Positions 53,301 through 58,448 of a DNA stretch of 64,000 nucleotides are shown here, piece by piece. Made by a program: the position numbers and the translations under genes. The notes below the pieces were generated by a model. It was not told the DNA's origin. It searched no databases and saw nothing but the letters and a program-made list of their open reading frames with translations. Origin of the DNA: Echinarachnius parma (Eukaryota; Echinodermata; Echinoidea; Clypeasteroida; Echinarachniidae); assembly GCA_037951105.1 (NCBI GenBank), contig JBAMJV010000851.1:124001-188000 (forward strand), in the 5' to 3' direction. Positions within the stretch are counted from its first letter, which is position 1, and every line of letters starts with the position of its first letter.

Positions 53301-56300
53301 TACTAAACATGTATGTGACAGGCTATAGCAAAATCTGGCACTTGTCTGTACAAATCAAAATTAAATGTTGCTTGTAAGTATCAGTTTCCATGGTGGTGTA
53401 TATAATACGTGTGGTTTGCGGTTGCACCATGTGAGAGGGGTGGATTGGTGAGTCCTGAAAAGGACTATGGTAACTAACTCCTAGAAAGGACTGTTGGTAG
53501 TCCTAGAAAGGACTGTTGGTGTAGTCCTGAAAAAGGACTGTTGGTGTAGTCCTGAAAAGGACTGTTGGTATTCTTTCTAGGAGAGTCCTAAAATGAACTG
53601 TTGGTAGTCCTAGAAAGGACTGTTGGTAGTCCTAGAAAGGACTGTTGGGATAGTCCTGAAAAGGACTGTTGGTATTCTTTCTAGTCCTGAGAGTCCTAAA
53701 AAGGACTGTAGGTAGTCCTAAAAAGGACTGTTGGTAGTCCTAGAAAGGACTGTTGGGATAGTCCTGGAAAGGACTGTTGGTATTGCGAGGAGAGGGTGGA
53801 TGGTAGGAGGGGCTCAATGTTTTGAATAGGTTGACTATCCGTCGTCAGGAGTGATCAAAATCAAAAATCAAAATGTAGATTTTCATACCATTACAAAGGC
53901 CTCATCACAAGCTTCATTTGATGCTTTGTTCTAACTAATTGGTCAATAATTGGCGAAGATATGATTGTTTCAACTTGACTATCATAGGTCTATTACACAC
54001 ATTGTATAAACTTAATATGTTCTTCAAAACATGAATTGCCGACAAGTGCATGGTTTTGCTATAGCCGGTATAGTTTTAATTCGTTCAGAACTGATCCACC
54101 AACAATATTCTGGTTGCTGTCTTTAGATGGAGCGTCATGGCTTTTGCGTGATCCCAGAATCAAAAGTCTGTCTATCTAGAACAATTTTTAATAACAATTT
54201 TAATTTACATTGTAATCGGTGATGTCTTGAGTTTTTAGTAAATAAAGTAAACATACATGTAGATTTATTGTAAACACACACACTTTACAGGTCTGCGAAC
54301 GCAACGGTCATGTCATGGTAAGAAAGACAACAGTTTCAGTTTGTGATAATAATCATAATAGCTTGCATTTATATAGCGCTTATAATAAAGGGTTTTTAAG
54401 TGCAAGTATTACTACCCATGGTCATCAGTCGGTAAAGTTCAAAGTTTCAAACCCACACAATGATAAATTGCATACTTTCTCAACTCCCCGGGGAGCATAC
54501 TAACCATATGCTGCCAATGGCGCGATGGCTAATTGACACCCGGGTAGAGAGCAGCAATCGTGGATTAATTGTAAAGGACAATCGGAGTGGGCTGGGTGCA
54601 AACTCGGGATCTCACGATCGGAAAGCGCACGCTCTACAAATCTTGCCACACAACATGACATACAATACATGTACATGTACTGAACTTGGAAAACCTGTAT
54701 TGCTGGGCATGAACTGGATGGTTTTTAAATTGGCCTAAATAGTTTAATAATCTACGAGGCTACCCTGTCGGAAGCGGGGCAAGTCTAATCTGCAGTTTAT
54801 CTAACGTGCTAATTCTTCACCTGTCATAACCAATCAACATTCCAGGATGTAGAAAATTTACACGTGTCCAATGGGCTAATCATATTGTCATGTTATAGAC
54901 TTTGTAAGTGAGATGAGGGGGGCCTTTCGCACGCGGACAGCATCATGCTTGTACAGTGTACAGTAATGATTGTAAAAAAGATTTGAATGCAGTGTCCATT
55001 TTGAAATTAATTTCTGCATTATATACAAAACGTTAAAATTGCCTTGAGTACTAGCCTTTCGTTTGCAAAATTTCTATTATCTGGACTGTCCCGGTTTCAA
55101 TTATAACTTAGCAGTTTGTATGTTTTTCTATCTTTCGGGCATGGTGCAGGAATTGCAACTTATAGTTTGAAATGATACGGTGCAAGCTTTGGTTACTAAC
55201 ATTCAGATTGACCAAAACTGTACTATACCTTTATATCTGGTTGGGTATGATTGTGTGATGGGAAATAGGGAATTCCTCATTGTTATAGCCACAAAAAACA
55301 CTTTATATAATTCATGTATGATCATCTAATGATACTAATGGTGATGATTATGTTTATAGTGGTGATAGTGATGATGATGATGGTGATGGTGATGGTGGTA
55401 ATGGTGATGATGGTAATATGATGAAGATGATGATGGTGATGATGATGATGATGGTGATGGTGATGGTGATGGTGATGGTGATGGTGATGGTGATGGTGAT
55501 GGTGCCGGTCACAGTGACAGTGACGGTGATGGTGATGATGGTAATGATGAAGATGAAGATGATAATGATGATGATGTGGATGAAGATGATGATAAAGATA
55601 ATTAACTACTCGGGTATCTTTCATGTTCTTGTAATCATGTCAGGACCAAGATGAGTTGCCTGGTGATGATTATGATGATGATGACGGTGATGGTGATGGT
55701 GGTGGTGATGGTAATGATGAGGAAGATGATAATAATGATGATGATGATGTGGATGAAGATGATGATAAAGATGACTAATGAGGTATCTCTCAAAAGACTC
55801 TCATGTTATTGTTACCATGTCAGGACCTAGATGACTTGCCAGCGCAGAAGAACGAGGTGTTGACGTGAGTGAACCGGGATGTTGATGTTGATAATATGAT
55901 GATGATGATGATTTTATGATGATGATGTTGACTTGATGGTGATGATGATGGTCTTGGTAATAATCAGGATTGTTCTATTTGATTTCAGGACCAAGATGAC
56001 TTGCCAGCGCAGAAGAACGAGGTGTTGACGTTAATGAACCGGGATGTTGATGGTGATAATGATGAAGATGATAATGATGAAGATGATAATGATGATGGCT
56101 GGTGATGATGATGGTCATGGTAATGAGGGTGATTATGATGATTGTGGTAATGAGGGTGATTATGATGATTGTGGTAATGAGGGTGATTATGATGATTGTG
56201 GTAATAATGAGGGTGATTATGATGATTGTGGTGATAATGAGGGTGATTATGATGATTGTGGTAATAATGGTTATCTGTTCTAGAAGGAAGATTATTCAAT

Positions 56301-58448: not shown

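Follow-up and report, generated by a model that had tools for sequence, protein, structure and literature searches.

The original lancelet work on repeated exon edges is reportedly a paper on Adh. Repeats of this kind, which span intron-exon boundaries, have been described in lancelets as "mirages" (PMC3087553), in passages that call the mechanism unclear and suggest that introns may be gained from such repeats. Passages of a further paper add imperfect repeats in lancelet PGBD5 and cite troponin C (PMC3902484). Where sizes are given, published mirage units measure 10-160 bp, with those of BflGb6 at 150-160 bp and 81-100% identity. Intron gain via tandem duplication of exonic sequence that contains a proto-splice site is treated in parts of PMC2891723. 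Here, we describe two series of partial exon copies (ladders) in a CRK-type gene. The CRK ladder is real and ordinary in kind: it represents exon-edge tandem duplication in a genome where local duplications look frequent.

The whole stretch of DNA analyzed (the window) is 64 kb long and carries the CRK-type adaptor gene on its + strand; the genome searched is a 1.2-Gb assembly of 14,790 contigs, and the presence of introns indicates a eukaryote. Exons are numbered as in the initial annotation, and exon 1 was not found. SH2-like pieces of the gene lie near 30406 and 31590 (both +). The former is presumably SH2-like, on the basis of its GTFLVRDS motif, and the latter falls short of the cut-off against Pfam SH2 (E 0.039). 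Exons 4 and 5, when joined, encode an SH3 domain (Pfam SH3_1, E 7.6e-13) whose 13 best solved-structure matches are Crk-like or CRK chains, and the C-terminal SH3 of the gene lies near 57250 and 58280 (+). The reading frame of exon 5 is open across all 43 codons. The window also contains a − strand open frame at 17132-21181 (1349 aa), which has no Pfam match at E 0.01, and a long TCCA array at 56679-56932, about 200 bp past the exon 5 donor.

Table 1. Positions of CRK exons, partial exon copies, and GAT-rich arrays in the window
Feature	Position	Strand	Details
CRK exon 2, SH2-like piece	30406..30525	+	Ends assigned by eye at AG and GTAAG
Exon 2 copy, acceptor and start	30101..30183	+	73% over 83 nt, E 8e-9; acceptor CAG reads CAT
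Second exon 2 copy, acceptor and start	30299..30356	+	88% over 25 nt, E 0.002; weaker beyond
CRK exon 4	46142..46258	+	39 codons, ends ...TFQSE, then GTAAGT
GAT array	46278..46478	+	About 20 bp past exon 4 donor
GAT-rich array before copy 1	55331..55605	+	Ends approximate
Copy 1 of exon 5, acceptor flank and first 17 nt	55633..55660	+	15/17 identical; 28 nt at 89%, E 1e-4
GAT-rich array, copies 1 to 2	55661..55778	+	With flank, 85% like stretch before copy 1 (127/149 aligned positions)
Copy 2 of exon 5, acceptor and first 58 nt	55817..55881	+	54/58 identical; in-frame stop
Donor-like GTGAGT in copy 2	55865..55870	+	41 nt past copy 2 acceptor; exon 5 reads GTTAGT there
GAT-rich array, copies 2 to 3	55882..55955	+	Ends approximate
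Copy 3 of exon 5, acceptor and first 58 nt	55982..56046	+	55/58 identical; junction same as copy 2
GAT-rich array and 27/30-bp minisatellite, copy 3 to exon 5	56047..56274	+	Ends approximate
CRK exon 5, intact, second part of N-terminal SH3	56352..56480	+	129 nt, 43 codons; TCAG acceptor before, donor GTAAGT at 56481

Three truncated copies of the exon 5 acceptor and exon start, as recognized in the initial annotation, precede the intact exon (Table 1). The motif CAGGACC at 55641, 55821, 55986, and 56349 marks exon starts at 55644, 55824, 55989, and 56352, respectively, and occurs at only one other + strand position in the window (8093). The starts are thus spaced at 180, 165, and 363 bp. In a search of the window with exon 5, copies 2 and 3 were recovered at E values of 2.6e-20 and 2.1e-21 and copy 1, together with its flank, at 1e-4, which indicates that none of the three is a chance match. 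The breakpoints were also confirmed as annotated: copies 2 and 3 depart from exon 5 right after CGGGATG, copy 1 does so earlier, at TTGCC, and GAT-rich repeats follow all three.

The exon parts of the copies are 88-95% identical to exon 5. The two differences that copies 2 and 3 have in common are synonymous; they lie at offset 8, where all three copies differ from exon 5, and at offset 47. Copy 1 carries one private change (D>E), copy 2 two (Q>L and a stop), and copy 3 one (V>I); read singly against the exon 5 codon, all four are non-synonymous, and they are too few to test. That the ladder is an artifact of assembly at a repeat-rich place is very unlikely, even given that arrays are hard to assemble, that one lancelet mirage appears misassembled in a draft (according to a passage of PMC3087553), and that a genome search for a second haplotype of exon 5 found none. 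Copies 1, 2, and 3 carry private changes and different flanks relative to one another and to exon 5, which argues against simple assembly stutter. Furthermore, C7323 and C8455, which are 95.8% alike and are probably haplotypes, carry the same single local copy.

The similarity among the copies extends into the intron. The flank pairs copy 1-copy 2 and copy 1-exon 5 align better than all 500 shuffles, and 7/500 shuffles were as good for the copy 3-exon 5 pair; the copy 2-exon 5 pair is moderate (34/500 as good), and the pairs 1-3 and 2-3 are no better than shuffles (236/500 and 320/500 as good). The acceptor CAG ends every flank and helps each of these pairs slightly. Spacer comparisons across the ladder give 76-87% identity with many gaps, and copies 2 and 3 form a tandem of 165-bp period with a common junction and common post-junction text. 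The exon parts and most of the flanks are homologous. Since the intron flanks are also duplicated, the copied unit consists of the intron end, the acceptor, and the exon start, together with GAT repeats. The earlier proposal that exon fragment and repeat block were duplicated as a unit is supported by the 165-bp period, by the alike flanks (127/149), and by the alike arrays.

A more specific proposal was that the exon recombined with the microsatellite. GATG occurs at only two sites in exon 5 (offsets 54 and 119), and copies 2 and 3 depart from the exon right after the first of these. The junction thus falls at a GATG that the exon and the array have in common, as recombination or slippage between the two could produce; this is suggestive, though not proof, of a microhomology junction. 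However, it probably represents one event rather than two, because copies 2 and 3 share both the junction and the text after it. With two GATG sites in 129 nt and a single event, the coincidence could be due to chance.

The initial annotation further held that a GAT-like coding stretch of exon 5 seeded the intronic microsatellite. The passage of copies 2 and 3 from the exon GATG into GAT repeats is what such an origin would leave; nevertheless, it is extremely improbable. GAT or ATC arrays are found elsewhere in the window at 12243-12488, 30965-31216, and 46278-46478, and the array before copy 1 lies upstream of every exon 5 fragment. When the genome was searched with 55600-56500, 113 rows matched, 2 in the window and 111 outside; the latter are rows, several per contig, rather than distinct places, and 40 of 5149 candidates were scored. 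All seven of the outside loci examined (L002 to L008, of which L002 and L007 overlap) contain a GAT array, two of these being about 1.1 kb long. Exon 5 with its near flanks, when searched genome-wide, returned this locus alone (itself and copies 2 and 3). The GAT array therefore does not appear to be a product of exon 5, because such arrays occur at other places in the window and in the genome and exon 5 was found only at this locus. Both ends of intron 4 carry GAT arrays.

A dispersed element carrying the exon was also considered and is not supported, as genome searches with exon 5 and exon 2 gave their own loci only; the exon 2 search returned itself alone, missing its two diverged upstream copies, and distant copies could be missed likewise. 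With respect to a conserved RNA element, the window has no Rfam match at the gathering score.

Serial short tandem duplications very probably copied the array, the intron end, the acceptor, and the exon start together. The left breakpoint would lie in intron 4, either within or beside a GAT array that already existed there, and the right one inside exon 5, a tandem geometry that would place each partial copy upstream and make the intact exon the last copy. A junction after TTGCC would have given copy 1, and one after CGGGATG, arising in a single event and later duplicated at the 165-bp period, would have given copies 2 and 3. Slippage in the arrays between the fragments may then have added length. 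This order of events is one that we infer from the arrangement of the copies.

The fragments could act as splice decoys, and copy 2, with an acceptor, 41 nt, and a GTGAGT, could be a poison exon that shifts the frame and causes a stop in exon 5; judged from these sequence features, this is unlikely. By computation of the frame, inclusion of the 41 nt produces a shift, and copy 2 joined to exon 5 runs into a stop inside that exon. Its donor-like site (GAC/GTGAGT) pairs more strongly with U1 (-6.6 kcal/mol) than does the real exon 5 donor (-5.6 kcal/mol), with the exon 4 donor at -8.2 kcal/mol, and the acceptor tracts of the copies are slightly richer in pyrimidines (10, 10, and 11 of 16) than that of the real exon 5 (8/16). 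However, copy 2 contains four GTs, and 3.2% of 3591 + strand GTs pair with U1 as well as its GTGAGT does; given these numbers, a single donor of this strength in three copies is unsurprising. At the donor position, copy 3 reads GTTAATG, and copy 1 stops short of it. Lancelet mirages are also reported without splicing disturbance in the relevant passages of PMC3087553 and PMC3902484. AGG/GTGATT, which is found at five places in the minisatellite after copy 3, has a U1 energy of -6.5 kcal/mol. The fragments are most likely unspliced, drifting debris, and they would be neutral, with splicing to 56352 presumably normal.

Exon 2 has a ladder of its own, in the region 30079-30479 of the window, with two upstream partial copies that include the acceptor region and flank. 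These copies, flanks included, align to one another, in an alignment made without a shuffle control. There is no GAT array beside this ladder, which otherwise appears to have the same architecture as that of exon 5. Downstream of exon 2, at about 30552-30634, is a weak acceptor-like match that scores 36 versus 28 for the top shuffle of 300, although BLAST at E 0.1 does not report it; if real, it would represent a copy of the acceptor side lying where the simple tandem rule predicts none. A 26-nt match to exon 2 at 40943 (E 0.008; score 36 versus 26 for the best of 300 shuffles) is too far away and too short to place. Exons 3, 4, 6, and 7 have no other match in the window at E 0.01; at E 0.1, exon 3 has two and exon 7 has one, with E values of 0.077-0.087 and at distances of at least 1.3 kb.

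Local direct duplications account for 9-11% of the bases in the window and touch 12-17% of its 125-nt blocks, both ranges being threshold dependent. From the latter, about 0.7-1.0 of six CRK exons would be expected to have a ladder, versus the two observed. Tandem duplications with periods of 108-222 bp are seen at 37286-37990, 49952-50524, 53479-53784, and 11120-11804.

We also surveyed SH3 domains in the genome. A search with SH3_1 gave 101 rows, of which the best 30 were examined with flanks of about 1.5 kb. Eight of these 30 repeat another row at >93% of the domain, as seven apparent haplotype pairs and one pair (C83/C6081) that is either haplotypic or paralogous, leaving 22 distinct SH3 matches, including two that share an open frame of C3737. 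To count as a local direct copy, a match had to lie within 1 kb, be at least 25 nt long, and be at least 65% identical, at E 1e-3 and with short tandem repeats masked. By this rule, partial direct copies touch 10 of the 22 distinct matches (best 30 of 101 rows), and inverted copies touch none (0/22). Flanking sequence at these loci, which includes the copies, predicts 5.4/22; enrichment at exons was considered and is not claimed. A previous, less stringent pass across 20 regions yielded 13/29, without distance or identity limits and with haplotype pairs and the copies themselves counted as rows.

Among the ten sets of copies, six lie upstream and extend past the 5' end of the domain match, three lie downstream and extend past its 3' end, and one (C7323) is inside the match; the sides were judged from domain-match ends rather than from exon borders. 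In all nine cases that pass a domain-match end, the side of the copies is that of tandem duplication and not of dispersed copying. Additional matches inside the domain were seen at L042 (a short one downstream) and L035 (one upstream). At C83, the SH3 rows at 108122 and 108338, which have a truncated domain, resemble copies of the exon at 108710. L053 (C83:107400-112500) and L061 (C6081:1-4000) are 99.6% alike over 679 bp and 87% alike across the SH3 exon-edge ladder; C83 and C6081 are either haplotypes or paralogues with a fast-changing ladder.

Exon-edge copying does not look special to CRK or to its GAT repeats. The idea of the GAT array as a necessary driver was rejected on the basis of the exon 2 ladder, which has no adjacent GAT array, and of the 10/22 distinct SH3 matches touched by local copies with short tandem repeats masked. 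The latter frequency suggests that exon-edge duplication is routine here, within a high general level of local duplication. Copying at so high a rate, at nearly half of the sampled SH3 matches, might keep cryptic splice acceptors and donors constantly available, and CRK copy 2, having gained a donor-like site, would be a nascent poison exon; we regard this extension as unlikely. Exon-edge copies could be used to study the birth of exons and introns and to learn how splicing passes over copies of an acceptor that lie close by. Such copies may be taken for exons by gene finders, as the rows at 108122 and 108338 of C83 illustrate.

As far as the published passages describe them, mirages and the CRK ladders have in common that an intron end and exon start (or an exon end and intron start) are repeated beside an intact exon. 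In mirages, AG/GT signals are retained in many units and either exon edge can be affected, which resembles the copies in this genome; the 150- to 160-bp units of BflGb6 and the imperfect copies of PGBD5 are further likenesses. The exon 5 ladder consists of tandem direct repeats that span the exon-intron boundary, and the intact exon is kept next to the partial copies. Copy-number variation of the mirage type can be compared at C83 and C6081, which are 87% alike within the ladder, and at C7323 and C8455, which have the same single copy. For comparison with the published ranges (10-160 bp, with 81-100% identity in BflGb6), the CRK copies are spaced at 180, 165, and 363 bp, with exon parts that are 88-95% identical and spacers that are 76-87% identical with many gaps. 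The CRK ladder differs from the mirages in those passages in that its units carry a GAT microsatellite and vary in length. The intron gain described in parts of PMC2891723 is likewise a tandem duplication that copies splice signals; however, the CRK copies land within an intron that is already present, and there is no sign of a new one. A genome search for the GFP family, which amphioxus possesses (PMC2679011), gave no match, and neither did its controls. Should the host not be a lancelet, exon-edge repeats would reach beyond the sole group found in the literature searched. Overall, the CRK ladders appear to fit the description of lancelet mirages, to which they add two more exons and a small estimate of frequency.
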